Positions 5,064 through 62,587 of a stretch of 64,000 bases of DNA are shown here, in pieces. Each line of letters starts with the position of its first letter. Positions within the stretch are counted from its first letter, which is position 1. Origin of the DNA: Paramacrobiotus metropolitanus (Eukaryota; Tardigrada; Eutardigrada; Parachela; Macrobiotidae); contig NW_026570283.1 in NCBI RefSeq assembly GCF_019649055.1, positions 806,001-870,000 on the forward strand, written 5' to 3'. The notes beneath the pieces were generated by a model that was given only the letters and a program-made list of their open reading frames with translations, was not told the DNA's origin and ran no database searches. A program made the position numbers and the translations under genes.

Positions 5064-6137
5064 TTTAAAGCAAAAACACTTCTTCAATGCTATCCTGCTC
5101 GGGGATTGTACCCATAACACATATCGCGTTTCCCCGTTGCATTTGAAATAGATAACCGCTGTCTAAAAAACTCTTTCGTCCGTTTCTGGCCTGTGGCAGC
5201 GGCGATACCGTTCCCCACCTTTTGCGCTAAAAGTTAAGTCCCGTCACTCCATGAACCATAAATTTCGAACGCTGCAGCGGTGAAATTATATCTCGATTGC
5301 ATCCAGGCATGTTTTGCTAGTTTCCTTCTTTCAGTTTGCTCGGTTGCGGCCCAAAAGTTAGCAAAGGTGCGCTCCATGGACGAAGCTGTGAGTGTATCGA
5401 CGCACGTCACGCCCACTGGGAACGGTTTCCCCGTCCCCACGGTACTAGTGTGATCACATCCGGCCTCTTGGTATCTTTCGCGGATAGACCTTTCGGTTCC
5501 ATTCTTGCTGGGAAACCGGCCGTCTTTAATCCGCGAGTGAACTCCCCACTGATGCCGTCGTGGCTTGGCAGTCTTCCGGCTTACCGCTTGCACAGGAGCT
5601 CGTGTCGTCTCAGGTCATCGCTTAACCCTCCACAAACGCACACATGGGGTTTAACAATTGGTGCTCCCAAACGCAGCGCCACACTTATACGGAAGGCATT
5701 GTTTTTCAGCAGATTACCGAGACAAGCTGCAGGCAGAGCATGGATCCATACTCCGGCTTCCGGAACGGATACCGCCTTCAGGTGAGCGACTTCCTTCTGT
5801 GTCGTCTTCAAAGCTGCTAGCTGTGAAAAGGCCTGTAGCGTTGCGGGTGTATTCCAGGCTTTTTGAACATGTCGGAGCGGTTCGGCTGGAAGTTCAACCG
5901 TGTTAGCCAGAGCTTTCTAGGCCTGCGTGGCGGCAGTTACATCCGTAGCCATCAGCGTTGGGCACAACCTGGAGATCAGTGGGCGCAGCGAAGAAGCCGA
6001 TGCAAAATAGGCAGACGGTGCTAGCTTCTCCGTACGTCTGATCCCCAAACCGCCAAAGCGAACGGGTAGGGAGGCCTGAAGCCACGACAGGTGGCCCATC
6101 CGAACGTTGGTTATGGATCCCACGGCGTCGCGAAATA
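5064..6137 (-). pseudogene. 5'-truncated non-LTR retrotransposon copy
   Basis: This is a second copy of the retrotransposon at 20.8-23.7 kb, on the same strand, holding only its last ~1.07 kb. Translated pieces match it closely: WLQASLPVRFGGLGIRRTEK, the CVCGG zinc-knuckle region and the 3' untranslated tail (TCGGGGATTGTACCCAT). Homology stops abruptly at about 6137, where the full copy continues into the thumb region of the reverse transcriptase; that is the 5' truncation typical of target-primed reverse transcription. The frame is broken by several indels, so no protein is made. The endonuclease motif is visible but altered. Confidence 0.9.
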
Positions 6138-6159
6138 CTGTACAGTTACGTAAGTACAA

Positions 6160-7904: not shown

Positions 7905-10770
7905 ATGCCCGTAGCAACGTGTTGCGGCGTTGCAGCAGTCCAGTCTAGCATACGAGCTAGCACTGGTTGCGCCAGTTGCTGCGTGTTGCGGCTTATAAGC
8001 CGTGTTGCGCCTGTTGCGGGGTTGCGCTGGCATAGCCCGGCCAAGCACGGCAGCACTGTTGCGGCCCGTTGCTGCGTGTTGCGGCTTATAAGCTGTGTTG
8101 CGCCTGTTGCGGCGTTGCGCTGGCATAGCCCGGCCAAGCACGGCAGCACTGTTGCGGCCCGTTGCTGCGTGTTGCGGCTAATAAGCCGTGTTGCGCCTGT
8201 TGCGACGTTGCATGGCATAGCCCTCAAGCACGGCAGCACTGTTGCGGCCCGTTGCTGCGTGTTGCGGCTAAAAGCCGTGTTGCGCCTGTTGCGGCGTTGC
8301 GCTGGCATAGTCCGACCACACGGCAGCACTGTTGCGGCCCGGTTGCTGCGTGTTGCGGCTAATAAGCCGTGTTGCGCCTGTTATGACGTTGCGCTGGCAT
8401 TAGCCCAGCGGCCAGCATGCAGCACCGTTGCGGCGTTGTTGCGTGTTGCGGCTAATAAGCCGTGTTGCGCCTGTTGCGACGTTGCGCTGGCATAGCCCCG
8501 CCAAGCACGGCAGCACTGTTGCGGCCCGTTGCTGCGTGTTGCGGCTAATAAGCCGTGTTGCGCCTGTTGCGACGTTGCGCTGGCATAGCCTGCTACACGG
8601 CAGCACTGTTGCGGCCCGTTGCTGCGTGTTGCGGCTAATAAGCCGTGTTGCGCCTGTTGCGACGTTGCGCTGGCATTAGCCCACAAGCACGGCAGCACTG
8701 TTGCGGCCCGTTGCTGCGTGTTGCGGCTAATAAGCCGTGTTGCGCCTGTTGCGACGTTGCGCTGGCATAGCCCCGCCAAGCACGGCAGCACTGTTGCGGC
8801 CCGTTGCTGCGTGTTGCGGCTAATAAGCCGTGTTGCGCCTGTTGCGGCGTTGCGCTGGCATAGCCCGGCCAAGCACGGCAGCACTGTTGCGGCCCGTTGC
8901 TGCGTGTTGCGGCTAATAAGCCGTGTTGCGCCTGTTGCGACGTTGCGCTGGCATAGTCCAGCCAAGCACGGCAGTACTGTTGCGGCCCGTTGCTGCGTGT
9001 TGCGGCTTATGTCGTGTTGCGTCTGTTGCGACGTTGCGCTGGCATAGCCCAGCCGCTAACGGCAGTACTGTTGCGGCCCGTTGCTGCGTGTTGCGGCTTA
9101 TAAGTCGTGTTGCGTCTGTTGCGACGTTGCGCTGGCATAGTCTGTAAGCCACACGGCAGCACTGTTGCGGCCCGTTGCTGCGTGTTGCGGCTAATAAGCC
9201 GTGTTGCGCCTGTTGCGACGTTGCGCTGGCATATCCAGCCGCTAACGGCAGCACTGTTGCGGCCCGTTGCTGCGTGTTGCGGCTTATAAGCCGTGTTGCG
9301 CCTGTTGCGACGTTGCGCTGGCATAGCCCAGCCAAGCACGGCAGTACTGTTGCGGCCCGTTGCTGCGTGTTGCGGCTTATAAGCCGTGTTGCGCCTGTTG
9401 CGACGTTGCGCTGGCATAGCCAGCCAAGCACGGCAACTGTTGCGGCCGTTGCTGCGTGTTGCGGCTAAGCCGTGTTGCGCCTGTTGCGGCGTTGCGCTGG
9501 CATAGCCCAGCCAAGCACGGCAGCACTGTTGCGGCCCGTTGCTGCGTGTTGCGGCTAAAGTCGTTGCGCCTGTTGCGGCGTTGCGCTGGCATATAGTCTG
9601 GCCAAACACGGCAGCACTGTTGCGGCCCGTTGCTGCGTGTTGCGGCTTATAAGCCGTGTTGCGCCTGTTGCGACGTTGCGCTGGCATAGCCCAGCCGGCA
9701 CGGCAGCACTGTTGCGGCCCGTTGCTGCGTGTTGCGGCTATCAAGCCGTTGCGCCTGTTGCGACGTTGCGCTGGCATAGCCCAATAGCTACACGGCAGCA
9801 CTGTTGCGGCCCGTTGCTGCGTGTTGCGGCTTATAAGCCGTGTTGCGCCTGTTGCGACGTTGCGCTGGCATAGCCCAAAGCTACGGCAGCACTGTTGCGG
9901 CCCGTTGCTGCGTGTTGCGGCTTATAAGCCGTGTTGCGCCTGTTGCGACGTTGCGCTGGCATAGCCCAGCGCCAACGGCAGCACTGTTGCGGCCCGTTGT
10001 TGCGTGTTGCGGCTTATAAGCCGTGTTGCGCCTGTTGCGACGTTGCGCTGGCATAGCCCAAGCACGGCAAGCACTGTTGCGGCCCGTTGCTGCGTGTTGC
10101 GGCTAATAAGCCGTGTTGCGCCTGTTGCGGCGTTGCGCTGGCATAGCCAATAGCCACACGGCAGCACTGTTGCGGCCCGTTGCTGCGTGTTGCGGCTAAT
10201 AAGCCGTGTTGCGCCTGTTGCGGCGTTGCGCTGGCATAGCCCAGCCAAGCACGGCAGTACTGTTGCGGCCCGTTGCTGCGTGTTGCGGCTTATAAGCCGT
10301 GTTGCGCCTGTTGCGACGTTGCGCTGGCATAGCCCAGCCAAGCACGGCAGCACTGTTGCGGCCCGTTGCTGCGTGTTGCGGCTAATAAGCCGTGTTGCGC
10401 CTGTTGCGACGCCAGGCTGGCATAGCCCAGTCAGTTAACGGCAGCACTGTTGCGGCCCGTTGCTGCGTGTTGCGGCTTATAAGCCGTGTTGCGCCTGTTG
10501 CGACGTTAGCTGGCATAGCCCAGCCGCTAACGGCAGTACTGTTGCGGCCCGTTGCTGCGTGTTGCGGCTTATAAGCCGTGTTGCGCCTGTTGCGGCGTTG
10601 CGCTGGCATAGCCCGGCCAAGCACGGCAGCACTGTTGCGGCCCGTTGCTGCGTGTTGCGGCTAATAAGCCGTGTTGCGCCTGTTGCGGCGTTGCGCTGGC
10701 ATAGCCCAGCCAAGCACGGCAGCACTGTTGCGGCCCGTTGCTGCGTGTTGCGGCTTATAAGACCTGTTGC
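7905..10770. repeat. 93-bp satellite array, about 30 units
   Basis: About 30 head-to-tail units have a period near 93 bp. Each unit is itself built from GTTGCG-type octamers (GTTGCGGCCC, GTTGCTGCGT, GTTGCGGCTT, GTTGCGCCT, GTTGCGAC, GTTGCGCTGG). Many units carry the perfect palindrome CGGCTTATAAGCCG; others have TAATAAG instead. Because 93 is divisible by three, long chance ORFs open in several frames on both strands (up to 264 codons) and should not be annotated as genes. Variation is concentrated in one 10-14-bp window between GCTGGCATA and CGGCAG, while the rest is nearly invariant. Confidence 0.97.
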
Positions 10771-10799
10771 GCTGTGAATGTTCGCTAAAACGCGGAAAC

Positions 10800-18900: not shown

Positions 18901-18915
18901 GAGCCAGTGTAAAAA

Positions 18916-20459
18916 ATGTCCCTAAATGCTACATTTTCTCCGACGAATTCCACACCGCCCAACACAACCTGGGATTTCTCTCCCATCTACAGTTTATGCA
19001 CCATCTTCCTCACTGTCATCGGCAACGGTTTCATTCTCTTCCTGTACATCCGCTCCAGCAAACTGCACGGTCCCTTCGCCGTCTACGTCATCAACCTTTT
19101 AATCGCTAATATGTTATGCAGCCTCATCCAGACCCCGCTGGATCTCTACGTCCGGTTGATCCGCCACCACTCCTTCCCGGCGCTGTTCTGCTCCTTCCAC
19201 GTCTACTTCAATTATGCCCTGACCACCACCATCCCCGTGGCGCACGTCCTTATCACCCTTAACCGGGTGTGGGCCATCGCTGCACCTTTATCCTACCGGC
19301 GGCATCACTCATATAAAATGGCAGCCGGGATTTGCGTTGGGATGTGGGTTTTCCTCAACGCCTACATTGTCCCGTGTGTCGTCATTGATGGTGTGTATTA
19401 CCGGACGGTCTTTGATAATGTCCACTGCACGGCCAATCAGGATTGGTCATACTGGGTATGTACAAAACGTGATGTTTCATAACCTGTCACGCTAGTACGC
19501 TATTTGAAAATATCTCGTACGTGCTGACATCAAAGAGCGTATCAGTTTATTTGCGCTTGTTAATTGAAAGATTTGGCAAAGGCAAACTACGGTGGCTAAA
19601 CGCACAAGCTCTTTTTGATTCCCCAAAAAGACCGATTAAGTTGTATATTTGCAAGGATGTGCTGCAAAATGACTAACCCTGATACAAATTCAATTCAACC
19701 TGTTTCAACATTTGTTTTGAATTCCAAATTCATATAATTTTTCCAGATCAAATCCACATTCATCTGATTTGCTGAAAATTAAATTTTCGTTGCATATACG
19801 TGCAAGCAATTTTAATTAATTTGTGACTTTATATGGAGCCAATGCAACTAAAACATAAGAGTAATTTTCAAAGCAGTGGTGTCCATTTAAATTAGCATTC
19901 GTTGAAAGCTGCTTTTGGAATTAATTTTCTGCATTCCTGGTAAAATCCTTTAAATCGTTCAACGCTAGGAAAAAATGAAGTTACCTAGAGCACAGCGAAA
20001 GTATCGTGTACTGATTTGCACACGGGATGAATAATATTGCAGGTGCAAGGATGCCGCGCCATGTTCTACATCGGTACCGAAGTCATCATTGTAGCTGTGT
20101 ATCCATATTTCCTGTACAAGTGGCGCCAACGCTGCCGGATACGGGGAAAGATCACGGTGGTGCAGAGCGCCAGTGAATCGGTGAAAAATGCCGGCGAGGT
20201 GTCGGAGCAGACGGCTGCCTCGCGGGCTTCGGCGCGGTCGTTCCTCGTGCTGACATTGTTGACTGCCAATGTGGTAGTATGCTGGACACCGATGAATGTG
20301 TATTTTCTATCTAATCGCTACATTGTTAATGGAGAATTCTACAAATTTGCCAAACTGATCAAGCTGACGTTTTCCGCTGTGGATCCGCTCTTGTTCGCTA
20401 TAGCAATTAAGGATCTCCGAGAGGCATGCCGGGATCTCTTTCAATGTTCTCGTTTGTAG
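18916..20459 (+). CDS. class A (rhodopsin-like) GPCR, two exons
   Basis: Exon 1 is 18916-19455 and exon 2 is 20043-20459. The donor TACTGG|GTATGT and acceptor AATATTGCAG|GTG are both in phase 0, giving about 318 residues. Exon 1 encodes an N terminus with several N-glycosylation sequons, then TM1 (VIGNGFILFLY, with the conserved GN), TM2 (NLLIANMLCSL), the TM3 cysteine (LFCSF), a TM3 end reading NRVWA where most relatives have DRY, and TM4 with its tryptophan. Exon 2 encodes TM5, a charged third intracellular loop, TM6 with CWTP and TM7 with DPLLFAI in place of NPxxY.
The intron cuts extracellular loop 2. The ligand cannot be told from sequence; peptide receptors are the usual guess for such short single-domain receptors. 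The N for D in the DRY motif is atypical and could alter constitutive activity. Confidence 0.9.
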
Positions 20460-20825: not shown

Positions 20826-23800
20826 ATTTACAAAAGAAACACTTCCTCTATGCAATCCTGATCGGGGATCGTACCCATTACACAAATCGCGTTTCCCCGT
20901 TGTATTTGCACAGATATTCGCTGTTTAAAAAACTCTTTCGCCCGCTTTTGGCCAGTTGAAGTTGCTATTTATTCCGTTTCCAACCGTTTCCACTAGCTTT
21001 TTAGTACCGTCTCCATAAGGTCCGTAAATTTCGATGGCTGCAGCAACGAAATCGTATCTTGCTTGCAACCAAGCGTGTTTCGCGAGTTTCTTCCTTTCAG
21101 CGAGTTCGGCTGCTGCGCCGGCGTTCACGGAAGTGCGGTCGATATACGAAACCGCCAGCGTGTCTACGCAGGTGACGTCTATGGCCAGCGGTTTTCCGCG
21201 CGCCCACGGTATTAGTGTGATCACGTCCGGCCTTTTCCTATCCTTCACAGACAGACCTTTTGGTTCCATTCTAGAGGGAAAACCGGCTGACTTCAAGCCT
21301 CGGGCAAATTCCGCGCTGATTCCGTCATGTCTTGGTAGTCTCCCGGCAGACCGCTTACAGCGAAGTCCATGCCGACCTAACTCGTCGACCAAACCTCCAC
21401 AAACGCACACATGTGGAGTAACTATTGGTGCACCCAGACGCAACGCAACACTGATGCGGAAGGCATTGTCCTCCAGGAGATTACCAAGGCAGGCTGCGGG
21501 TAAAGCATGAATCCACACACCTGATTCCGGAACTGATACCGCCTTCAGGTGCGCGACTTCCTCCGGTAAAGTCCGTAGCGTAGTCAGCCTTGAAAACGCA
21601 TTCAAGGTCACAGGAGTGTCCCAGGCTTTCTGGACGTGTCGGATGGCTTGCGCCGGAATTTCGTCGGTGTCGGCCTCTAACTTCCAGGCGCGAGTGGCGG
21701 TAGTAACATCCGTTGCCGTCAGTTTCGGGCACAGCTTGGAAATCAGTGGATGTAACGAAGAAGCCGATGCCAAGTAGGCAGAAGGAGCTAGCTTCTCAGT
21801 TCGCCTGATTCCCAAACCCCCGAAACGAACGGGAAGGGAGGCCTGCAGCCATGTTGGATGATCCATCTTTACATTGGTGATGGTCTCAACTGATTCGCGA
21901 AATACCTGGTCCAGTCTGTACAGCTCTTGTGGAAACATCCATGCGGGGGAAGTGCGCAAGATATGTACTATTTTTGGCACCCCAAGGCAGTTCTTCAACA
22001 GGAACAGGGCTTGGTGTTTAGGAATAAGCTGCAAACGGCCGCACATAATTCCCAACTGGTTGATTTTTTCATTGATTATCGGGATTACGGCGGCTGGTAG
22101 AAGAGGGGATCCCAGCAAATTTAGCTTATCCGCTGTTACTAAAGCTATTCCAGGGAACAAGCTGGTGAACTCGTTAGCGGCCGATGAACGCTGTGCTTCG
22201 GTGCCCCCGCACAAAAACAGTTCGCACTTGGCGATGTTGACTTCCAGGCCGACTTTCTTAGCTTCCACTATCAGCAGCAAGTTACGGATCACTTCCGATG
22301 GTGTTCCTCCTAATTTCCCATCATCCATGTACCAAGCGTTCAGGTAAGCGTTTAGCTTGTCGATGACGAACTGAAGTACTAAACAAAACAAGGCCGGACC
22401 AAGAGGATCCCCTTGCTGCACGCCAGACTGCGAGGCAATTATTGTTTCACCTAAGAACAGCGAAGAGTATGAACCGTAGCACATTTTCACAAAGGCGTAA
22501 TTTTCCGGTATGACTTCAGCCGTTATCCGCAGTACTTCCTCGCGTGACACGCAGTCGAAGGCGTTAGTGAAATCGATTTTTAGAAGAGCTTTAACGCCGC
22601 CACTATATTCGAGCAGGAAATCTCTAGCTGCGTGGATAATTCCTTCGACTCCTCTCTTTACTCCGGAGCCTAGTTGATGTGGTTGTAGAATCTCCGCTGT
22701 GACTGGCCTAATTCGGATATCCACCGCCTTGGCAGCAATACGGCGGTATATATTTCCTACGGCGATCGGGCGCAAGCCACCATCCTTTTTACGCAAGGCA
22801 ACCAGTCGAGCGCCACACAAGAGTGGGACCACCTCAGGAGGAGCTTTGCCCGCTAAGATAAGGTTGAGCAGGTCCGTCAGAGCGTCGCACAAACTAGATG
22901 CGGCGTCATCCATTCTTGCCCCAATCAGGTCCAGCAAATGTTGGGGACGCAGATAATCCAGGCCTCCTGCGCTGCCACGTGGCATCGCCTCTAGGACAGA
23001 TAAAACCTCAGCGGGGGTAAGAGGGGCGAAACTAGAGGCTGGAGGATCGGGCGGCGGTGTAGGTAACGGGGCAGCTGGGTGTTTAAGCTTCATTGATTCT
23101 ATTACAATCGGGGTACTGTCAGCTACAGAGTCCGACGAGAGCAGAGTGCGTACCGCTCCACTGACGTTAAAATCATCAATCTGAATACCCACTCGACGGG
23201 CGATCTCGTCCTCGGGAGTAGCGCGCCGAGGCTTACCGGGTGCGGCTTTGGTTTCTTCATCGTCAAGTTCGCCGCTCTCAAATTTAGCGATCTGGTCCCG
23301 GATGTGCGATGTGATGGAGGTTTTCCGAGACTTTTTACTGGCGCCTGGGAGAGAGAGGATCGCTGAGGGAGCGGAAAGCAGCTTTAGCCACGAAGATGAG
23401 TCGTTGGCAGATACAGCGCTCCGCATAAGCTTGGCCAAGGCTATCGCAACGGAGGCACGTGCTGCTTTCGGTATCCGTCGCATAAGTTTTCTCCTAGCCG
23501 AAATGAAAGGAGGAGGCAACGCCCCGGTTGCGGTCGGAGGAGAACGGCGCGTTTGGCCCTGGGATTGCGGAGGATCGACGGGGCGCCCGAGTCGTTGTGC
23601 TTGGCGCTCGAGACAGTTCCCACTGCCTAAATGACTGCCCTGGCGCTTGCAGATTAACTGACAGTCGGGGCAGGTCCACGTCATCGCAGCTATGGACAGA
23701 AATCTCACGGCAGAATGGGGAGTACGGAAGCCAGAGGAAAGAAACTACAGAGTACGGCACGGTGGGGGCCTGATAACTACGGGACAAGCTGCCACGACAG

Positions 23801-23935: not shown

Positions 23936-24461
23936 TTATAGATCACGATTTTCGCACCAAAAAAATTTTTTTTTTTTTGTACGTACATGTTCACAACGCT
24001 CAATTTAAAACAGCACAGATGTCAACGTTGTGGCACGTATTACGCAAACATGCTTATGCTTTTTTATTCGAACCCGTTGTTCGGTGTAATAAAACAATTA
24101 TACTGATTTATCCATCTTCGAAGCCTTCTCATCACACAAACTGATAGTGAATCATAAATTTTTATTAAGTAATACATTCTTGAGCCGAAAATCAGATGGC
24201 AGTAATCGTTTTAGTGCGTTAGCGCTTTGTACGGCTTTCAGCGTCAATATGCTTAAAGAACTAGGAGCAACTCGTAACTGTGGAAAGAAGTCTTAAAAGT
24301 ACTTCAGTATGATTTTTCACGAAATGAAAGGTAAAATCCAATTCATTGGTAGTGAGGCATTGTACAATACCGAATGTAAACCAAGCGGGCAAGTAATCGA
24401 AACACGGTAAAAGTAATATCTGAACAGAAATACAGCGGAAATCATACACAGGAGTGTCTAA

Positions 24462-27400
24462 TTAAGCAGTGCCAATAACATCAGTTTTGATGCTGTTCTG
24501 GTGCATATACAGATAACCGCAAATGAACACCGACACCGATATGCTAGTGGCAGTGCTTATGGGCACTTGAGGTGCCGGTGCGGCCAACCCTGGACTAGCG
24601 GGTGTATTTGGAGCCGGTGCAGCCAATCCTGGAGCGGGTGTATTTGGAGCCGGTGCAGCCAGTCCTGGAGCGGGTGTATTTGGAGCCGGTGCAGCCAGTC
24701 CTGGAGCGGGTGTATTTGGAGCCGGTGCAGCCAGCCCTGGAGCGGGTGTATTTGGAGCCGGTGCAGCCAGTCCTGGAGCGGGTGTATTTGGAGCCGGTGC
24801 AGCCAGTCCTGGAGCGGGTGTATTTGGAGCCGGTGCAGCCAGTCCTGCAGCGGGTGTATTTGGAGCCGGTGCAGCCAATCCTGGAGCGGGTGTATTTGGA
24901 GCCGGTGCAGCCAATCCTGGAGCGGGTGTATTTGGAGCCGGTGCAGCCAGACCTGGAGCGGGTGTATTTGGAGCCGATGCAGCCGGTCCTAGAGCGGGTG
25001 TATTTGGAGCCGGTGCAGCCAGTCCTGGAGCGGGTGTATTTGGAGCCGGTGCAGCCAGTCCTGGAGCGGGTGTATTTGAAGCCGGTGCAGCCAGTCCTGG
25101 AGCGGGTGTATTTGGAGCCGGTGCAGCCAATCCTGGAGCGGGTGTATTTGGAGCCGGTGCAGCCAATCCAGGAGCGGGTGTATTTGGAGCCGGTGCAGCC
25201 AGTCCTGGAGCGGGTGTATTTGGAGCCGATGCAGCCGGTCCTAGAGCGGGTGTATTTGGAACCGGTGCAGCCAATCCTCGAGCGGGTGCATTTGGAGCCG
25301 GTGCAGCCAGTCCTGGAGCGGGTGTATTTGGAGCCGGTGCAGCCAGTCCTGGAGCGGGTGTATTTGGAGCCGGTGCAGCCAATCCTGGAGCGGGTGTATT
25401 TGGATCCGGTGCAGCCAGTCCTGGAGCGGGTGTATTTGGAGCCGGTGCAGCCAATCCAGGAGCGGGTGTATTTGGAGCCGGTGCAGCCAATCCAGGAGCG
25501 GGTGTATTTGGAGCCGGTGCAGCCAATCCTGGAGCGGGTGTATTTGGAGCCGGTGCAGCCAATCCAGGAGCGGGTGTATTTGGAGCCGGTGCAGCCAATC
25601 CTGGAGCGGGTGTATTTGGAGCCGGTGCAGCCAATCCAGGAGCGGGTGTATTTGGAGCCGGTGCAGCCAATCCTGGAACGGGTGCATTTGGAGCCGGTGC
25701 AGCCAATCCAGGAGCGGGTGTATTTGGAGCCGGTGCAGCCAATCCTGGAGCGGGTGTATTTGGAGCCGGTGCAGCCAATCCTGGAGCGGGTGTATTTGGA
25801 GCCGGTGCAGCCAATCCAGGAGCGAGTGTATTTGGAGCCGGTGCAGCCAATCCTGGAGCGGGTGTATTTGGAGCCGGTGCAGCCAATCCAGGAGCGGGTG
25901 TATTTGGAGCCGGTGCAGCCAATCCTGGAACGGGTGCATTTGGAGCCGGTGCAGCCAATCCAGGAGCGGGTGTATTTGGAGCCGGTGCAGCCAATCCTGG
26001 AGCGGGTGTATTTGGAGCCGGTGCAGCCAATCCTGGAGCGGGTGTATTTGGAGCCGGTGCAGCCAATCCAGGAGCGAGTGTATTTGGAGCCGGTGCAGCC
26101 AATCCTGGAGCGAGTGTATTTGGAGCCGGTGCAGCCAATCCAGGAGCGGGTGTATTTGGAGCCGGTGCAGCCAATCCAGGAGCGGGTGTATTTGGAGCCG
26201 GTGCAGCCAATCCTGGAGCGGGTGTATTTGGAGCCGGTGCAGCCAATCCAGGAGCGGGTGTATTTGGAGCCGGTGCAGCCAATCCTGGAGCGGGTGTATT
26301 TGGAGCCGGTGCAGCCAATCCAGGAGCGGGTGTATTTGGAGCCGGTGCAGCCAATCCTGGAGCGGGTGTATTTGGAACCGGTGCAGCCAATCCAGGAGCG
26401 GGTGTATTTGGAGCCGGTGCAGCCAATCCTGGAACGGGTGCATTTGGAGCCGGTGCAGCCAATCCAGGAGCGGGTGTATTTGGAGCCGGTGCAGCCAATC
26501 CTGGAGCGGGTGTATTTGGAGCCGGTGCAGCCAATCCTGGAGCGGGTGTATTTGGAGCCGGTGCAGCCAATCCAGGAGCGAGTGTATTTGGAGCCGGTGC
26601 AGCCAATCCTGGAGCGGGTGTATTTGGAGCCGGTGCAGCCAATCCAGGAGCGGGTGTATTTGGAGCCGGTGCAGCCAATCCTGGAACGGGTGCATTTGGA
26701 GCCGGTGCAGCCAATCCAGGAGCGGGTGTATTTGGAGCCGGTGCAGCCAATCCTGGAGCGGGTGTATTTGGAGCCGGTGCAGCCAATCCTGGAGCGGGTG
26801 TATTTGGAGCCGGTGCAGCCAATCCAGGAGCGAGTGTATTTGGAGCCGGTGCAGCCAATCCTGGAGCGAGTGTATTTGGAGCCGGTGCAGCCAATCCAGG
26901 AGCGGGTGTATTTGGAGCCGGTGCAGCCAATCCAGGAGCGGGTGTATTTGGAGCCGGTGCAGCCAATCCTGGAGCGGGTGTATTTGGAGCCGGTGCAGCC
27001 AGTCCTGGAGCGGGTGTATTTGGAGCCGATGCAGCCGGTCCTAGAGCGGGTGTATTTGGAGCCGGTGCAGCCAGTCCTGGAGCGGGTGTATTTGGAGCCG
27101 GTGCAGCCAGTCCTGGAGCGGGTGTATTTGAAGCCGGTGCAGCCAGTCCTGGAGCGGGTGTATTTGGAGCCGGTGCAGCCAATCCTGGAGCGGGTGTATT
27201 TGGAGCCGGTGCAGCCAATCCAGGAGCGGGTGTATTTGGAGCCGGTGCAGCCAGTCCTGGAGCGGGTGTATTTGGAGCCGATGCAGCCGGTCCTAGAGCG
27301 GGTGTATTTGGAACCGGTGCAGCCAATCCTCGAGCGGGTGCATTTGGAGCCGGTGCAGCCAGTCCTGGAGCGGGTGTATTTGGAGCCGGTGCAGCCAGTC

Positions 27401-28579
27401 CTGGAGCGGGTGTATTTGAAGCCGGTGCAGCCAGTCCTGGAGCGGGTGTATTTGGAGCCGGTGCAGCCAATCCAGGAGCGGGTGTATTTGGAGCCGGTGC
27501 AGCCAATCCTGGAGCGGGTGTATTTGGAGCCGGTGCAGCCAATCCAGGAGCGGGTGTATTTGGAGCCGGTGCAGCCAATCCTGGAACGGGTGCATTTGGA
27601 GCCGGTGCAGCCAATCCTGGAGCGGGTGTATTTGGAGCCGGTGCAGCCAATCCAGGAGCGAGTGTATTTGGAGCCGGTGCAGCCAATCCTGGAGCGGGTG
27701 TATTTGGAGCCGGTGCAGCCAATCCAGGAGCGGGTGTATTTGGAGCCGGTGCAGCCAATCCTGGAGCGGGTGTATTTGGAGCCGGTGCAGCCAATCCAGG
27801 AGCGAGTGTATTTGGAGCCGGTGCAGCCAATCCTGGAGCGGGTGTATTTGGAGCCGGTGCAGCCAATCCAGGAGCGGGTTTATTTGGAGCCGGTGCAGCC
27901 AATCCTGGAGCGGGTGTATTTGGAGCCGGTGCAGCCAATCCAGGAGCGGGTGTATTTGGAGCCGGTGCAGCCAATCCAGGAGCGGGTGTATTTGGAGCCG
28001 GTGCAGCCAATCCTGGAGCGGGTGTATTTGGAGCCGGTGCAGCCAATCCTGGACTAGCGGGTTTCTGTCGTGCAGGAGCAAATGGTAGTTGTTTGGATAC
28101 GTTGTCGATCGGTAGAATTTCGGCATGTGTCGCTGCCCAGTCATTTGTGCCTGCCCAGTAGTTTTTTCCTAGAAAGCACGGCTTACTTGGGTTTCTCGAA
28201 TTTACTAACCAAGACTTGGTAGCCAAGCATAGGTAAAGTGCCAAAGTTTAAAAAGAAATTATTTGAATTGATTTCATATCTTATGGGTTGTTATGCAGCA
28301 GCAACGGTCACATGTAACGCGCCATCATTGTATACTTCTACTCCTGTATGGTACGAGATAAGTAGTATTATCTACTTGCTCGCATTGTGTACTAGTACTA
28401 TTGAAATTTCTTTATTTACCTGATCCCTGTGTGCTGCCAAATGGACGTGTCACTTCGATGGCCATTTGGACGTCGATTGGTTTGGCGAGCGGCAACGCTA
28501 CGAGTGCAAAAAGAAGAAATTGCGTTGTGGACTTGGATAAGCCACGAAATGCAAGCAAGTGTTCTAACGTTTTATCCAT
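24462..28579 (-). CDS. secreted Pro/Ala-rich 12-residue-repeat protein, two exons
   Basis: Exon 1 is 28579-28420 and starts MDKTLEHLLAF. A hydrophobic stretch (FLLFALVALPLA) forms a signal peptide. It ends at the donor GGATCAG|GTAAAT in phase 1. Exon 2 starts at 28168 after the acceptor CTTTCTAG, also phase 1, and runs to the stop at 24462, giving about 1,288 residues. After a unique ~45-residue segment there are about 96 copies of the dodecamer TPAPGLAAPAPN, then a short unique tail ending SISVSVFICGYLYMHQNS and about ten more residues, which could be a weak membrane segment.
The minus-strand frame is chosen because the commonest unit differences (CCA/CCT and TTG/CTG) are silent in it, whereas in the two other long open frames they change residues. 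Such a Pro/Ala/Gly repeat suggests an extended secreted structural, coat or mucous protein; that function is inferred. An alternative acceptor (TACTGGGCAG) would shorten exon 2 by a few codons in the same phase. Confidence 0.75.
24590..28060. repeat. 36-bp tandem repeat array, about 96 units
   Basis: Near-perfect units on the plus strand read GGTGTATTTGGAGCCGGTGC followed by AGCCAATCCTGGAGCG. Variants mark higher-order structure: the block carrying GCCGATGCAGCCGGTCCTAGA, TTTGAAGCC and GGAACCGGTGCAGCC occurs at about 24.97-25.36 kb and again at 27.03-27.43 kb. A run alternating CCTGG and CCAGG units is copied several times between them. The array therefore grew by duplication of multi-unit blocks. 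Confidence 0.98.
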
Positions 28580-28645
28580 GTTTAAGAAATCAATAGTCTT
28601 TTGAATTACCGGCGACTTGGTTTCTTGCCTTGACATTGCTTTGCA

Positions 28646-28654
28646 TTTATATAT
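28646..28654 (-). promoter_or_regulatory. TATA box of the repeat-protein gene
   Basis: TATATAAAT on the minus strand lies about 70 bp upstream of the ATG at 28579. A start of transcription ~30 bp downstream would fall near 28624. That is past an in-frame upstream ATG at 28636, so the MDKTLEH start is preferred. Confidence 0.6.
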
Positions 28655-41248: not shown

Positions 41249-43435
41249 TTACCACGCGGTCGTCATCAGCGCCACCACACTCAAAACGATAGCGGCCGTG
41301 ATGGAGGATGTTGCGGTGACGGAGGATGTTGCGGAGACCGCGGCAGCGGACTTCGGGCTGCTCGTGGTGGTAGTTGAACTTGCACTGCCGCTGGCGGACG
41401 GCATTTGGTTGTGGCTGGTTGCATTCGGTGCAGCTGCATCGATCGTCGAGGTTCCGTTCACGACCGGTAACGGGCTGATCCACGACGAAGCAGCGGCCGC
41501 TGATGCTGACGAGTTTAGCAGCGCCGCCGCTGCGACACTGTGGTTGGATCCCGACATACGCGGCGGTATCGCGAGCGATGCGTTGGCGGCCGTGGCTGCG
41601 GAAGTATTTACCGCCAAACCGGCTGAGAGCCCGCTAGTATTCGTTTGGTTGTTTGTGCTTGACATTGGCTCGGTCGTGGTGGAATTATCTACAAAGAACT
41701 TCTATTCTCATTACAGTACTTTAAAAAAATAAATCCCAAAAACATATGTTTTCTTCGGGGATCGGTCGAAATATTCGCAGGCGTGAATTTAATTTTTGTT
41801 ATTTTTCAGACACAATAAAAACTGCACGTACTCCTTTAGGTTTTATGTAAATACAGCCTACAGGTATACAGACTTACTTAACTACAATACAGAGATGCAT
41901 GCGTGTAAGTAGTTAAATTTTTAATTTAATGCAGTTTTTTTGTGCAGTATAATAATGTTCTCGTACTGTAGATGGCTGTATGGAAGTTAGTTTAAACACC
42001 TATCGGTTTCGTTAACTGCACTGCGACGGAATCGCAGAACTAACGACGGAGTTTGTAGTGCACTGGCTGCCGTTTCAATGAATGCGTAGCTGCTGTTGTA
42101 AAGGTCGTCCGCACAATCCAAAATTAAGTTAATGGCCTTCGCCACTGGTTTTGAGAGTAAGTGGCATCCCCGATGCGTGTTTCCTAATGTGCAATGGAAG
42201 CGTCTCAGGTTAAATATCAAAAATTAGAGAACAGATTCGTTGTGTTAAGAAGCTGAACGGTGAAGGAACAGTGGTGGCAGTGTGGCACTAACCTTGGGCA
42301 ACGGCAAGGACAAGCGGAGCCGTAATACCATCCCGTTGCCGCCGCGGCCAGGACTGCCCGCGTAGAACGGTGCCGTTTTCGAAAACCAAGAAACTGAAAA
42401 AAAGAATAATAGCACTAACGAATAACAGTAATCAATACTAAAAATAAAAATAGTTAAGTATATAAAATTATAATTGGCTAATAATAGTACTAACAATAAG
42501 AAAGTACGCAGTCATTCATGGATTACTAGCAGTAAATGTATAAATGATACTGTAGCGGCGTTAACAAGTTAGACCACAGAGTTGGTTTAACGGAAAAATG
42601 TACACTGAATATACCCACGCTGCACGGGCAAAATTCACGACGCAAAAATTCGGAGTTCCTTGGGCACCATTCATGTTCTGGAGTAACTAAACATTTTATA
42701 ACTAATTAATAATATCTAAAATTAAAAATTAGTTAAAAACTGTACTACAGAAGGCTAAAAGTAATGCATACAAATTAGAGCTTTGATTTTACCATGTAGG
42801 TTTGTTGTGGTTTTTGGGGTAGCCCCTACGCTGGGGGGACGGTTTTTGTTTAGCATTTGAAGGCAGAAAGTGGCGTTTTTTGATGATACAAAAAATATTG
42901 GTGGAAAAATAGTCGGAATTAAGCAAACATCTGCTATCTGAAGATCGGTAAATGTAAACGCGATTGGAGCCGTGAATTTTGCCCGTGCAGCGTGGGTATA
43001 TCAGTGCGCATTTTTCCGGTAAACGAACTCTGTGGTCTAACTTGTTAACGCCGCTACAGTACTTAATAAATAACATTATTTGACAGCGAGTTATTTTGCT
43101 ATGGATACCATAAAATGAAAACTCAAAAAAAAGGTTTGAACGTTGGCAAAATAACCGTTTCGAGAAACTTATACGCATGCCGTAGAATTTTTAAAATATT
43201 TTCATTAGAAGAACCGCAGTAACTTGACCTACTTGTACGGGTGCTGCAGACGCGCCATTTCGCGGGGCGGATGGCTGAAGAACCTCCCGCAATCAATCCT
43301 GTCTGGACAGACATCCTCAATGGGATAGGTCACCACCATAAATGTCATTAAAGCCGAGGCGAGAAAGTTGTTATTGGGCATGGTATTCAGACTGTAAAGG
43401 TCAAGACCGGCGGCTGAACATGCTGACGACGCCAT
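41249..43435 (-). CDS. cell-surface glycoprotein paralog A, four exons, GPI-like tail
   Basis: Exon 1 is 43435-43233 (signal-like core FLASALMTFMVVTYP, then VCPDRIDCGRFF), with donor |GTAGGT in phase 2. Exon 2 is 42393-42293 (FLVFENGTVLRGQSWP), phases 2 and 1, 101 nt. Exon 3 starts at 42183 (with ILDCADDLYNSSY and LQTPSLVLRFRR). Exon 4 is 41688-41249, a Ser/Thr/Ala/Asn stalk with many N-glycosylation sequons that ends in a short hydrophobic tail (ITAAIVLSVVALMTTAW) like a GPI-anchor signal.
Gene B at 46964-48232 is its paralog, with identical exon 2 length and matching phases at the first two introns. The exon 3 donor here (GATAG|GTGTTT, at 42000) leaves phase 2, whereas exon 4 needs phase 1; this is a real inconsistency that may mean decay or another donor. 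Intron 1 carries a MITE. I do not recognise the family. Confidence 0.65.
42548..43061. mobile_element. 514-bp MITE with ~95-bp inverted repeats, TA-flanked
   Basis: The left end TACTGTAGCGGCGTTAACAA and about 75 further bases recur as reverse complement at the right end (ending GCCGCTACAGTA), with a few mismatches. Terminal TA on both sides fits a Tc1/mariner-type target duplication. It lies wholly in intron 1 of paralog A and is absent from the corresponding intron of paralog B, which is only about 100 bp long. Confidence 0.88.
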
Positions 43436-43574
43436 AGCTGAATGATTAAAAATTATTATCCAGAAAAGGCTCTTTTTTGAAAAATATGAAGAGGTCTTGA
43501 AGGTATAAAAATCGCTTGCGAGCAAATGAGGTTTATATTCGTCTGTGCCTTCGATTGAGTCACGATAGCCAGAG

Positions 43575-43735
43575 TGCCAGACCAACCTATGACGTCGTAT
43601 TGGCACGTCTTAAAACACACCGTTTGCTGCATAATGCCAGTGATTAGGATACGATAAAACCCATTAGACCGTGGTCGGTGCGTTGTTGGCAAGGGTTCCC
43701 AGCTGTCGTACCGGAAGTGACGTCATGCTAGACGG
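43575..43735 (-). promoter_or_regulatory. conserved upstream block of paralog A
   Basis: This region matches 48455-48600 upstream of paralog B while the sequence around it does not. Shared words on the plus strand include ATGACGTCG, TTGGCACGTC/TCGGCACATC, AGTGATTAGGATACGATAA against AGCGATCAGGATTCGATAA, TTGGCAAGGG, and GAAGTGACGT. The TGACGTC/TGACGT words are CREB/ATF-type half or full sites. A TATA-like TTTTTATACC lies nearer the gene at about 43503-43510. Confidence 0.6.
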
Positions 43736-46963: not shown

Positions 46964-48232
46964 TTACACGCGGCCCATTACCCGTGTCTCGGTGCGTCGG
47001 TGCTGCACGTACAGATAACCGACCAGCAGCGCCGACGTTATCAAGGCCAGCACGCCCAGTGCAATACCGGCATCCGCCGCTGCTTTCGTCGCCACGTGCA
47101 CGACAGCCGAAGCTTTTGTCGCTGGAGTGGTTACCGCTGCGGTTGATGTGGTCTTGGCGGTGCTCTCCGCACCCAACGCTGGTTTATCTATACGTGTAGT
47201 GTTGCCTGAAGAATGTGTGTCGTTGTCCGTTATATTGAACGATGCTGTGCTGTCGGTGTTCGTCGAAGCGTTGCCCGTTGCGTTGCTATTAAACAGCGGC
47301 AGCGTGTTGGTGTTATTCGTTGAGCTGGATGCGTTGAGTGGCGTTTGGCCAGTTAAATTCTGGGTATCTACGAAACATTAGAATGTTTTTATATAATTTT
47401 TGTTTTTGTAAGCAAGCACTTGATATACTCCTGTGTAACTATACTGCAGCAAGGTTGATATAATTAGAATTTGATACATTCCCGGATTTATTTACATACA
47501 GCGGAGTTTAATAATTTTTCTATGGGTGGTATTATCATGGCAGAAAAAGCAAAATTATTAGCCGCAGTAAAATTTTACCGTTTAAATCAGCTCCGCGGCG
47601 GAATCGCAGAACAGACATCGGCGTTTGCAGTGCAGTAACGGCCGTGCGGATGGACTGGTAGTTGCCGGGGACGTACTCCTCAGAGCAGTCCAAGATGCTG
47701 TTGATGACCTTTACAGCGGCCTGTGAAAGCGGTCGGTATCCACCATCTCGTGTGCCTATTTAAATCGAAAACAGAAGATTGGTTTATTCTTAATGAAAGA
47801 TGCAGTTTTTTAGTGTCGGTAAAACAAACCTCGGACAATCGCGATAACGAGCGGCGTTGGAGTGCCGTCACTCCGTATCTGCGGCCAGGCTTGTCCGAGT
47901 AGAATGGTGCCGTTTTCAAAAAGCAGAAAACTAAACAAAGATTTTATATGCCAGCAGTATAAATATGACTGTTCAATATTATTGCTATTACTATATTATA
48001 TAGAAATAAATTTTTCAAATTATTCGAAGCCTTACTTATAAGGATGCCGGAGATGGGCCATTTCCGTGGGCGGCTCCGTGTAAAACAGCCGGCAATTTTG
48101 GAAATCGGAGCAGACATTAATGTCGGGAACAGGATAGGTTACCACCATAAATGCCATCAAAGCAGAAGTAAGAAAATTGCTACTGGACAAAGTATTCAAA
48201 TTATAAAGAACTGCACACGCGGAAAACGCCAT
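46964..48232 (-). CDS. cell-surface glycoprotein paralog B, four exons, single-pass TM
   Basis: The exons are 48232-48036, 47930-47830, 47755-47579 and 47367-46964. All junctions are GT-AG, with agreeing phases 2, 1, 1; the total is 879 nt, 292 residues. Exon 1 has a signal-like core (FLTSALMAFMVVTYP) and VCSDFQNCRLFY. Exon 2 has FLLFENGTILLGQAWP. Exon 3 has ILDCSEEY and LQTPMSVLRFRR. Exon 4 is an Asn/Ser/Thr-rich stalk with about ten N-glycosylation sequons (such as NASSSTNNTNT), a membrane helix (AGIALGVLALITSALLVGYL) and a 13-residue basic tail.
The predicted topology is outside/TM/inside. Paralog A differs mainly in the tail, where a short GPI-like end replaces the TM segment. The conserved ectodomain (three or four Cys) matches no family I know. 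Confidence 0.78.
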
Positions 48233-48328
48233 TTCATTATGAAGCGTGTAGTATTAATACTAAGTGGCGAAAAAGGAAGTCACAATTATTGTGGAAAGAT
48301 TAAGTTGAGTACGTTGAGAAAGGAAGGG

Positions 48329-49479: not shown

Positions 49480-49895
49480 CTGTACTTCATCATAACCTGT
49501 GGTATATTTTTGCAGTCGCTGCCGAATGCCGACATCAGCCGCATGCACCTTTCTAAAAACGCGAGACCGGGCGTTGCTCTCCGTTTTGGACGCCCAGTAG
49601 CGGAGGAACCCGACTGTGTGCACTGCGAAAGGCGAAAACGGCTTGTCATGCCCTAGCAAAAAAGAACAAAGGCAATATGGCCGCAACACCACCGGCGCTC
49701 GACACCGAAAACAAAACGGGCGTAGTAGAAAGCGGATTATCACTGCTAAAACAAACCTAACACTGAAATTTCCAAGCAAAGATAATAAGCGACCGGAAGG
49801 AATGACGTCAATCCCAGTGCTCGACGGAACCGTGCTGGCATGGGATGCCACGTGCTGGGACACTGTGGATGACTCCCACGATCGGACTAGCTAAA
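49480..49895 (+). pseudogene. relic of a second RLE-type non-LTR retrotransposon
   Basis: On the plus strand, pieces translate to RFGRPVAEEPDCVHC (cf. RLGAPIVTPHVCVC of the intact element) and KDNKRPEGMTSIPVLDG...LAWDATCWDTVDDSH (cf. KDRKRPDVITLIPW...LAIDVTCVDTL). The RPDGMT...WDATC arrangement is a recurrent form of this endonuclease in animals. Stops and frameshifts separate the pieces, and the first catalytic aspartate reads Glu. Orientation and sequence differ from the 20.8-kb element, so this is an independent, older family member. Confidence 0.65.
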
Positions 49896-61093: not shown

Positions 61094-62142
61094 CTACACT
61101 CTCTCGAATGGGTGTTCTCGCACGCGGTCTTCTGCTTGCGGTGCTACTGAGTTCTCCATGGGGGAAAGCTCCATCTGGGGAGCGACCTGGCGGTTAAGCG
61201 GACAACATGATAAATTAATACTGGGTAAACAGCATCGTATTGGAGTGCATATTTCTCCCCAAACCGCACGTAGCTGGGGCATGGTTAGGGAGATAAACAG
61301 CGGTTGGATTATAATGGGAACAAAATAAAGATATCCGCCGTACGTGTCCAAAATAAAGATATCTCGCTCTGGTAACAACAGCAGTATTCGCTTAAAACAA
61401 GGCCTATTTTGCTAGGAAGCCAGCAAACTATTTCAATTGCTGTTAAGGCGGTATAGGTCCAGAATTGTCGACTCCTGCCCCGAGAACGTCGCCACCGTCT
61501 GTAATGCGCACAGGCGATATAAATGTATGTTAGAATATTAAAGCCGAGTGGTGCTAAATGAGCCGCTATGGGTAGATAGGTCGCATATAACGATGGGTGA
61601 TCCGGATCTATGCATTCAACGGTAGAATGGGGAAGTTTCGATACGTCCAAGATAATTTGGGGTAAATACATTGCGTGCACGATACAGAATAAGACACCGG
61701 AAATGCCAACGGCCATCCGTGTTGTGTAGCGATTTTTATATGGGATTGGAAACAAACTGGCCATGGCCCGGTTAAATGATACGGTCCAATGAATCCACAG
61801 CAACACCGACGTGGTCACGGAATCGGCATAAAAGACTATAGCACAATAAATCTTTGTCACGGGATTCTCAGTGCCGTACAGTGGATCGACGATATAGTAC
61901 ATGGTGCCCAGAGTGACCGCGCAAAAGATATTCGCCATTAGTAGGAGCAGGACATGCATCTTGAACGAAGATTGTGGAACCCGCTTCTTGACTCCATAAA
62001 ATACGAGGGCGTTTATTGCGACTGCCACGCAAAGACCACCGGCCACTAGCAAAATCTCGTACCATGTTGCCGATTTTGACGTTGACGATGTTGTCGCGTT
62101 ATTGTAAGCCCCGATGGACTGGTTGTCGGATGAATTATCCAT
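61094..62142 (-). CDS. rhodopsin-like GPCR with TM7 in a different frame
   Basis: The start is taken as MDNSSDNQSIGAYNN, with N-glycosylation sequons; an upstream in-frame ATG at 62184 lies in an inverted repeat. TM1 is GGLCVAVAINALVFYGV, TM2 LLLLMANIFCAV, TM3 ends FNRAMA (the DRY position), TM4 is VGISGVLFCIVHAMYLP, TM5 YIYIACAHY, and TM6 IEIVCWLPS. This frame stops at 61309.
The expected TM7 and helix 8 are nevertheless there in the adjacent frame: YLYFVPIIIQPLFISLTMPQ then LRAVWGE (cf. NPxxY...F), followed by a cysteine-rich tail (CTPIRCC) that ends at 61094. A 15-bp direct repeat, offset by 28 bp, lies exactly at the junction, but removing one copy does not restore the TM7 frame. An intron would have to be about 30 nt. 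A frameshifted pseudogene or a sequence error is the simplest reading. Confidence 0.75.
61321..61363. repeat. 15-bp direct repeat at the GPCR frame break
   Basis: CAAAATAAAGATATC occurs at 61321-61335 and 61349-61363, an offset of 28 bp (not a multiple of three), inside the TM6-TM7 loop of the receptor. Confidence 0.97.
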
Positions 62143-62170
62143 AGTGGCGTCTGAATAAAAAACAGGTACA

Positions 62171-62587
62171 TCGCTTTTTCTCATATTCCGGTCACTTTGA
62201 GTGTATGGTTTTATATTTCGGTCACCAAGTATTAAAATTTCCTGACAAAACGAAGGTCACATAGATCATTAATTTTTACAAAAACGACTTCTTTCATTAA
62301 ATCTGAACGAAAACATCAATAAATTTTTAAGAAAAACAAACAAATAACAGAAACTCAGAACCAAGTGAGACGCAAAACACTGGGCCTTTCCGTCTATGAA
62401 CTTCAACAAAGGAAATTTAATGGACCCCTGAAGAGTGTGCGGGTGGGCTTGCTCAGGGAACTGCACATTTGACGGTTGGCTACAGGCGCATATTCATGTA
62501 ATGCGCCACATGTGCGGTCGCACCAGTGACCGGTGACCGAAATATGAAACCATACACTCAAAGTGACCGGAATATGAGAAAAAGCGA
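62171..62587. mobile_element. 417-bp inverted-repeat element, 56-bp arms
   Basis: 62171-62226 and 62532-62587 are reverse complements with a single mismatch. The arms contain CATATTCCGGTCACTTTGAG. Each arm also contains ATGAGAAAAAGCGA reading outward, so ORFs seem to start with MRKS on both sides; that is a by-product of the repeat. The interior is non-coding. Confidence 0.92.

Follow-up and report, generated by a model that had tools for sequence, protein, structure and literature searches.

Anatomy of the array gene

A 64,000-nucleotide stretch of the genome of the tardigrade Paramacrobiotus metropolitanus (contig NW_026570283.1, positions 806,001 to 870,000), referred to below as the window and numbered from its first letter, carries on its minus strand a putative two-exon gene dominated by a tandem array of 36-bp units, here termed the array gene. 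Comparison with the rest of the genome suggests that it is a rebuilt paralog of a multi-exon family found elsewhere. Translation of exon 1 joined to exon 2 in phase 1 gives a frame of 1,288 amino acids with no internal stop, which agrees with the splice phases proposed in an earlier note on this DNA, itself made from the letters alone. The TATA element TATATAAATG (28644-28653) lies 74 bp upstream of the ATG. Exon 1 (28420-28579; 160 nt, ending in phase 1), defined by translation, genomic matches and hydropathy, begins MDKTLEHLLAFRGLSKSTTQFLLFALVALPLAKP and encodes a probable signal peptide, its N-terminus displaying a hydropathy of 1.62 over 19 residues; both the TATA box and the signal exon had been noticed earlier. 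The intron (28169-28419; 251 bp, GT...AG), placed by translation and by the intron comparison described below, would, if retained, place a stop only a few codons in. A scan for bacterial promoters and terminators near the gene start, ill suited to a eukaryote, returned nothing.

Exon 2, delimited by translation, occupies 24462-28168. Its 5′ part (28065-28168, TNDWAATHAEILPIDN) matches family exon 3 at the DNA level and contains an in-frame 18-bp duplication. Register analysis then reveals a 39-bp edge unit, KPASPGLAAPAPN (28026-28064), 95 tandem units, each exactly 36 bp long, with the consensus TPAPGLAAPAPN (24606-28025; 15 unit types), and a second 39-bp edge unit, TPASPGLAAPAPQ (24567-24605). 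Tandem Repeats Finder (TRF) reports a 36-bp unit in 96.6 copies at 24574-28053 (score 6205), and the approximately 96 copies of the earlier note are thus 95 exact units with a longer unit at each edge. Both edge units carry an extra AGT codon; the 5′ edge unit otherwise differs from the consensus solely at its first codon, which specifies K in place of T. When the order of unit types is compared with itself, duplicated blocks appear at shifts of 21, 57, 28 and 7 units, with a run of 16 identical units at shift 21 and one of 11 at shift 57. The exon closes with a weakly hydrophobic C-terminal segment, VPISTATSISVSVFICGYLYMHQNSIKTDVIGTA, and the stop codon (24462-24566), a region that by alignment and hydropathy resembles the C-terminus of a neighbouring gene discussed below. 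A possible polyadenylation signal lies 295 bp past the stop (24161-24166), with another at 24068, both by pattern match only. When 701 bases of the array locus were used to search the genome (169.8 Mb, 533 contigs), all 52 matches fell inside the locus itself; simple repeats are skipped in this search, and its counts are lower bounds.

The array (residues 93-1252) is composed of 33% Ala, 32% Pro, 9% Leu and 8% each of Gly, Asn and Thr. K, R and D are scarce, K and R together numbering about three, and the array contains no N-glycosylation sequon. TPxP is a preferred context for O-glycans, and the 74 such sites in the whole protein could bear them. Assignment of the array as a mucin (PTS domain) was rejected; mucins contain around 40% Ser plus Thr, against which the 7.6% Thr and 0.7% Ser of the array are too sparse.

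Reading frame of the array

Four frames remain open for more than 1,000 codons: the Pro/Ala frame (1,261), GAGAANPG (1,196), VYLEPVQPILER (1,152) and TRSRIGCTGSKY (1,094). The earlier note had listed three. Its statement that both strands are open holds, while the HRLQIHPLLDWL frame does not belong to the set, being broken by stops into pieces of which those of at least 120 amino acids measure 291, 599 and 143. The note had further argued that differences between units are mostly silent in the Pro/Ala frame and that this fixes the coding frame. Weighted by copies, the first part is correct, as the Pro/Ala frame shows 59 silent and 43 replacement differences, compared with 27-37 silent and 65-75 replacement in the other five frames. 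When each distinct kind of change is counted once, silent kinds make up only 4 of 16 in the Pro/Ala frame (expected share, 32%; P for four or more = 0.80), against 7 of 16 in both the TRSRIGCTGSKY (P = 0.13) and the VYLEPVQPILER (P = 0.16) frames and 2 of 16 in the antisense GAGAANPG frame. Counted in this way, no frame is under significant constraint. The copy-weighted excess arises because two variants, to which 57 of the 59 silent copies trace, were multiplied by duplication. The per-frame comparison of silent with replacement changes, which had been set beforehand as a check able to refute the frame assignment, thus goes against it by kinds and not by copies, and the argument that silent variation fixes the frame fails. 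More generally, selection is overstated by counting unit copies where variants have spread through duplication.

A small amount of codon evidence for the Pro/Ala frame remains in the 3′ edge unit. Its first 12 codons differ from the consensus by four silent changes and no replacement, for which our own arithmetic gives a chance of about 0.01. In four of the five other frames the same stretch shows three or four replacements, the antisense GAGAANPG frame again having none.

Relationship to a multi-exon gene family

A genome search with the 54-residue exon 1 returned the array gene itself and nine other places (E 0.010-0.18), with alignments that begin at residue 1, 2 or 4 of the query. These nine loci (L019-L027) contain multi-exon genes. 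Provisional gene models were made by reading, and six exons (2 and 4-8) read from L020 were used as queries; exons 2, 4, 5 and 6 matched all nine loci, exon 7 eight and exon 8 seven (E 0.001 or better). In the provisional family layout exon 1 encodes the signal peptide, exon 2 reads LGENETFPGTFSLCP...TYAWLPRLG, exon 3 NWTATRAEILRIENG and exon 4 RSALMLIRYMLPVSD..., while exons 5-7 include RAEVRVWNFDPDGWVVNFFVIL and exon 8 reads FALSYPKMKSGLYWKLWRYPS... Exon 8 soon ends without a hydrophobic segment in L020, L021, L026 and L027; L019 and L025 read otherwise. Exon 6 has at least 35 genomic matches at E 0.01 or better, grouped on contigs C36, C19, C58, C52, C38 and C6 and single on six more contigs. 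No Pfam family scored above its curated cut-off for the two halves of a family member, for the neighbouring gene B or for the start of the array gene, and two stretches of a family member had no match in the PDB at E 1 or better. The earlier note could not place the protein in a known family; we find that it probably derives from a multi-exon family that is itself unnamed. The L019-L027 family is worth description on its own.

The array gene shares several features with this family. It has the signal-like hydrophobic exon 1 and the RFRG(V/L)-type stretch that precedes the hydrophobic segment (a stretch that is variable in some members), and its exon-1 DNA matches family exon 1, in some loci reaching into the 5′ leader. 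Exon 2 starts at the acceptor position of family exon 3, reading TNDWAATHAEIL compared with SNWTATHAEIL in the family, and the exon-3 feature NWTATHAEIL is present, the DNA agreeing with L025 at 26 of 28 bases. Exon 3 itself was found in six of the nine loci (L020, L021, L023, L024, L025 and L027), the DNA match in L024 being weak (E 4.4). Used alone as a genomic query, the 5′ part of exon 2 retrieved only itself. The phase-1 donor of exon 1 is likewise common to the array gene and five of the nine loci (L020, L022, L023, L025 and L027). Seven of ten other family genes have a match to TATATA, TATAAA or TATATT at 70-95 bp ahead of the ATG, two of the seven being near-identical tandem copies; in L022 the match is at 113 bp, and L024 and the second L022 gene have none. 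Such matches occurred in 116 of 3,300 random 40-bp windows of the family loci, a comparison to be read with the fact that the position window was picked after inspection.

Between the two retained exons the intron holds what is left of family exon 2. A segment at 28208-28234, corresponding to the 3′ end of that exon, is identical at 26 of 27 bases to the second gene of L022, and weaker similarity continues to about 28355. In comparisons of the intron with ten family exon-2 copies (L021_2564, which is not an exon 2, was left out), none of 300 intron shuffles reached the observed score for nine copies, and 97 of 300 did so for the tenth; the tests are not independent because the family copies are related. 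A comparison of the six family exons with the window gave a single hit at E 1 or better, exon 2 at 28237-28208 (8 of 10 residues, E 0.07). No intact family exon 2 (GENETFPGTFSLCP...TYAWLPSLG) is present in the array gene, only this decayed relic, which contains stops; splicing through an acceptor before 28343 would reach a stop 16 residues after exon 1. Skipping of exon 2 keeps the frame, because exons 1 and 2 both end in phase 1 (in L020, by reading). Exons 4-8 of L020 find no match in the window at E 1 or better, and none of the 35 or more listed genomic matches to exon 6 lies on the contig of the array gene, C63, so that the array gene would be family-derived without being a standard member.

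These data indicate that the earlier identification of a spliced gene with a signal peptide in the Pro/Ala frame is probably right, on grounds other than silent variation. The frame is supported because exon 1, the exon-3 sequence, the exon-2 relic and the TATA position are common to a family located elsewhere in the genome.

Two observations concern individual family members. L020 and L027 are neighbours on C36, and their RAEVRVW exons are identical (100% over 126 amino acids), with small indels elsewhere; exon 3 of L027 carries single-base deletions relative to L020 and may reflect a pseudogene or assembly errors. Exon 3 of L025 contains an in-frame stop codon, making this locus a possible pseudogene.

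Proposed origin and alternative explanations

On balance we favour the view that the array gene is a rebuilt paralog of this probably secreted family, which kept the promoter, the signal peptide and a short N-terminal piece, gained the array and came to make a polymer. In the order of events that we propose, a family copy would have retained its promoter, signal-peptide exon and exon 3, while exon 2 decayed and ended up inside the intron, its skipping leaving the frame intact. Exons 4-8 would have been lost and the space filled by a 39-bp Pro/Ala unit, which would then have dropped 3 bp and been amplified to about 95 copies, the block duplications following later. If the gene is transcribed, the signal peptide would direct the protein out of the cell, where the Pro/Ala region of about 1,160 residues may be disordered, strongly hydrated and almost uncharged, with a possible role as hydrophilic coat, brush or spacer; the hydrophobic C-terminal segment might loosely tether it. 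Several observations weigh against this proposal. The exon-1 matches are singly weak (best E 0.010) and convincing only alongside the other exons; exon 3 was not found in three of the nine loci (L019, L022 and L026); and donor scans place the end of exon 1 in phase 0 in L021 and L026 and in phase 2 in L019 and L024. Exon-1 pN/pS (the ratio of nonsynonymous to synonymous differences) against nine family sequences (L026 left out, the second L022 gene added) counts in its favour, the values of 0.49-0.77 falling inside the 0.43-0.94 seen within the family, but this pairwise measure mixes the history of the whole family and cannot single out the branch of the array gene. Also against the proposal, the kinds of change within the array are not preferentially silent, the 3′ edge unit has a replacement (N to Q) at its 13th codon, and the C-terminal segment is weakly hydrophobic.

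The main competing explanation, which we regard as unlikely yet deserving of serious weight, is that the locus is a pseudogene, a family copy in decay within which a 36-bp, GC-rich repeat has expanded. In this case the open frame would follow only from a unit length of 36, divisible by 3, and from the lack of a stop in the unit, and the existence of four frames open beyond 1,000 codons means that openness of the array proves little. The decayed exon 2, the undetected exons 4-8 and the lack of a silent excess among the inner variants all suit such a history, and a chimeric icefish afgp/tlp copy with a long uninterrupted repeat is called a pseudogene in PMC10256766. Harder to reconcile with decay is that a single frame, with matched splice phase, stays open through exon 1, the 5′ part of exon 2 and the C-terminal segment, while the exon-2 relic contains stops, and that the recognised indels in the retained parts (the 18-bp duplication and the 3-bp edge difference) are all in frame, the 95 units being uniformly 36 bp. 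The TATA element at the family position also argues for a gene. A plain satellite or minisatellite with chance flanking open reading frames and no gene history would account for the very regular array and its block duplications, but the TATA position, exon 1, the exon-2 relic and exon 3 are colinear with the gene family, and this homology of the 5′ flank contradicts a plain satellite directly, leaving it highly improbable. Equally hard to credit is that a different frame codes, either the plus-strand VYLEPVQPILER frame (VYLEPV) or the antisense GAGAANPG frame. Both are open for more than 1,150 codons, the VYLEPV frame has more silent kinds than the Pro/Ala frame, and in the 3′ edge unit the GAGAANPG frame is free of replacements over the leading 36 bases. 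It is into the Pro/Ala frame, however, that family exons 1 and 3 lead; the 3′ edge unit has three replacements in VYLEPV, and GAGAANPG has the few silent kinds given above.

A further proposal, that the protein is a membrane-anchored cell-surface stalk, is compatible with the rebuilt-paralog view and concerns the C-terminus; we consider it unlikely. Here the family 5′ part would have been combined with a terminal exon of two related, multi-exon neighbours, genes A (41249-43609, minus strand) and B (46967-48253, minus strand), which have Ser/Thr/Ala-rich C-terminal exons and hydrophobic ends, to give a transmembrane segment and a short tail. The last residues of the array gene, SISVSVFICGYLYMHQNSIKTDVIG, align with the C-terminus of gene B (46967-47377, minus strand) over 25 residues with a BLOSUM62 score of 44, which none of 20,000 shuffles reached, although gene B was chosen for comparison post hoc, after inspection. 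Genes A and B lie on the strand of the array gene, at distances of about 13 and 18 kb, and a genome search with exon 1 of gene B found these two genes only. A chimera with the A/B genes is conceivable. Against a stalk, the hydropathy maximum of the segment is 1.53 over 19 residues compared with 2.19 in gene B, the DNA match to gene B (18 of 21 bases, E 0.76) is not significant alone, and a genome search with the C-terminus returned itself and one weak, stop-bearing hit (E 0.35). The terminal exon of gene B, used in the same way, retrieved only itself.

Other features of the window

A 939-residue open frame (20925-23744, minus strand), which follows the array gene at a distance of about 700 bp on its downstream side, contains a reverse transcriptase domain (PF00078, E 5.4e-19); broken pieces related to it lie at about 5068-6159 (minus strand), with a weaker match at 49601-49891. 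The other large tandem array in the window, at 7959-10772, has a period of 93 bp, about 30 copies and 90% matches, and holds several shorter open frames on both strands. Pieces of rhodopsin-type G protein-coupled receptor genes (PF00001) occur twice, at 18913-19482 (plus strand) and 61309-62256 (minus strand).

Comparison with known systems

The exact repeat peptide was absent from the papers searched, and no such protein appeared among the matches listed for tardigrades. PMC5531438 describes the SAHS proteins as a tardigrade-specific family with local clusters. In the present genome a SAHS1-like probe gave six matches within about 20 kb at C3:446923-467157 and one more on C78; an exon read in the C3 cluster matched SAHS1 in the PDB (5xn9) at E 4.8e-19, and this cluster marks the genome as that of a tardigrade. 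A lipocalin examined for the same purpose proved to be an ordinary fatty-acid-binding protein and was uninformative.

Within the genome itself, the L019-L027 genes resemble the array gene in TATA position, exon 1, exon 3 and, at five loci, exon-1 phase. They differ from it in keeping exons 2, 4, 5 and 6 throughout and in lacking a comparable coding array, none being detected by TRF in the nine loci. Coding repeats in the second exon of a multigene family also have a precedent in a crustacean, as PMC7536079 reports for the Rlec lectins of the prawn Macrobrachium nipponense, which have tandem repeats of 30/33 bp in exon 2, in 1-9 copies. The likeness to the array gene lies in the multigene family and the exon-2 repeats; the differences are the number of copies (1-9 compared with about 95) and the original body of the protein, which is gone in the array gene.

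The ancestor of the antifreeze glycoprotein (AFGP) genes of notothenioid fish had many exons, only certain of which were retained. The AFGP genes, derived from the gene of a trypsinogen-like protease, are similar to the array gene in having two exons, a signal peptide in exon 1, a very repetitive exon 2 and descent from the gene of another protein, as set out for afgp in PMC10256766. The two systems differ in their unit, which is Thr-Ala-Ala in AFGP and 12 residues with one Thr in the array gene, and in their ancestors, which are unrelated. No cleavage spacers of the AFGP type were seen in the array gene.

The composition of the array invites comparison with engineered Pro/Ala/Ser (PAS) and Pro/Ala polypeptides, where PMC5813227 describes the Pro/Ala/Ser chains as random coils more hydrophilic than polyethylene glycol (PEG). 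Like these polymers, the array is long, repetitive and almost without charge, Pro and Ala together making up roughly two thirds of it, and by analogy it may form a hydrated random coil. PAS chains are designed whereas the array is natural, its unit adds Leu, Gly, Asn and Thr, and the likeness is one of composition. That this tardigrade has followed the route of fish AFGP to a natural PAS-like hydration polymer, coating cells or cuticle and protective in drying or freezing, is a speculation to which we attach a low probability. On that route a duplicate of a secreted-protein gene would retain promoter and signal peptide, shed its body and multiply a short Thr/Pro/Ala repeat. If the array gene is expressed, the steps by which a new protein arises from an old gene would be legible in a single locus, through the retained promoter and signal-peptide exon, the former exon in decay within the intron, the ancestral-looking 39-bp edge units and the fresh inner block duplications. 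Expression would also mean that a group of animals studied for desiccation tolerance has its own natural equivalent of the Pro/Ala polymers that were designed to replace PEG.

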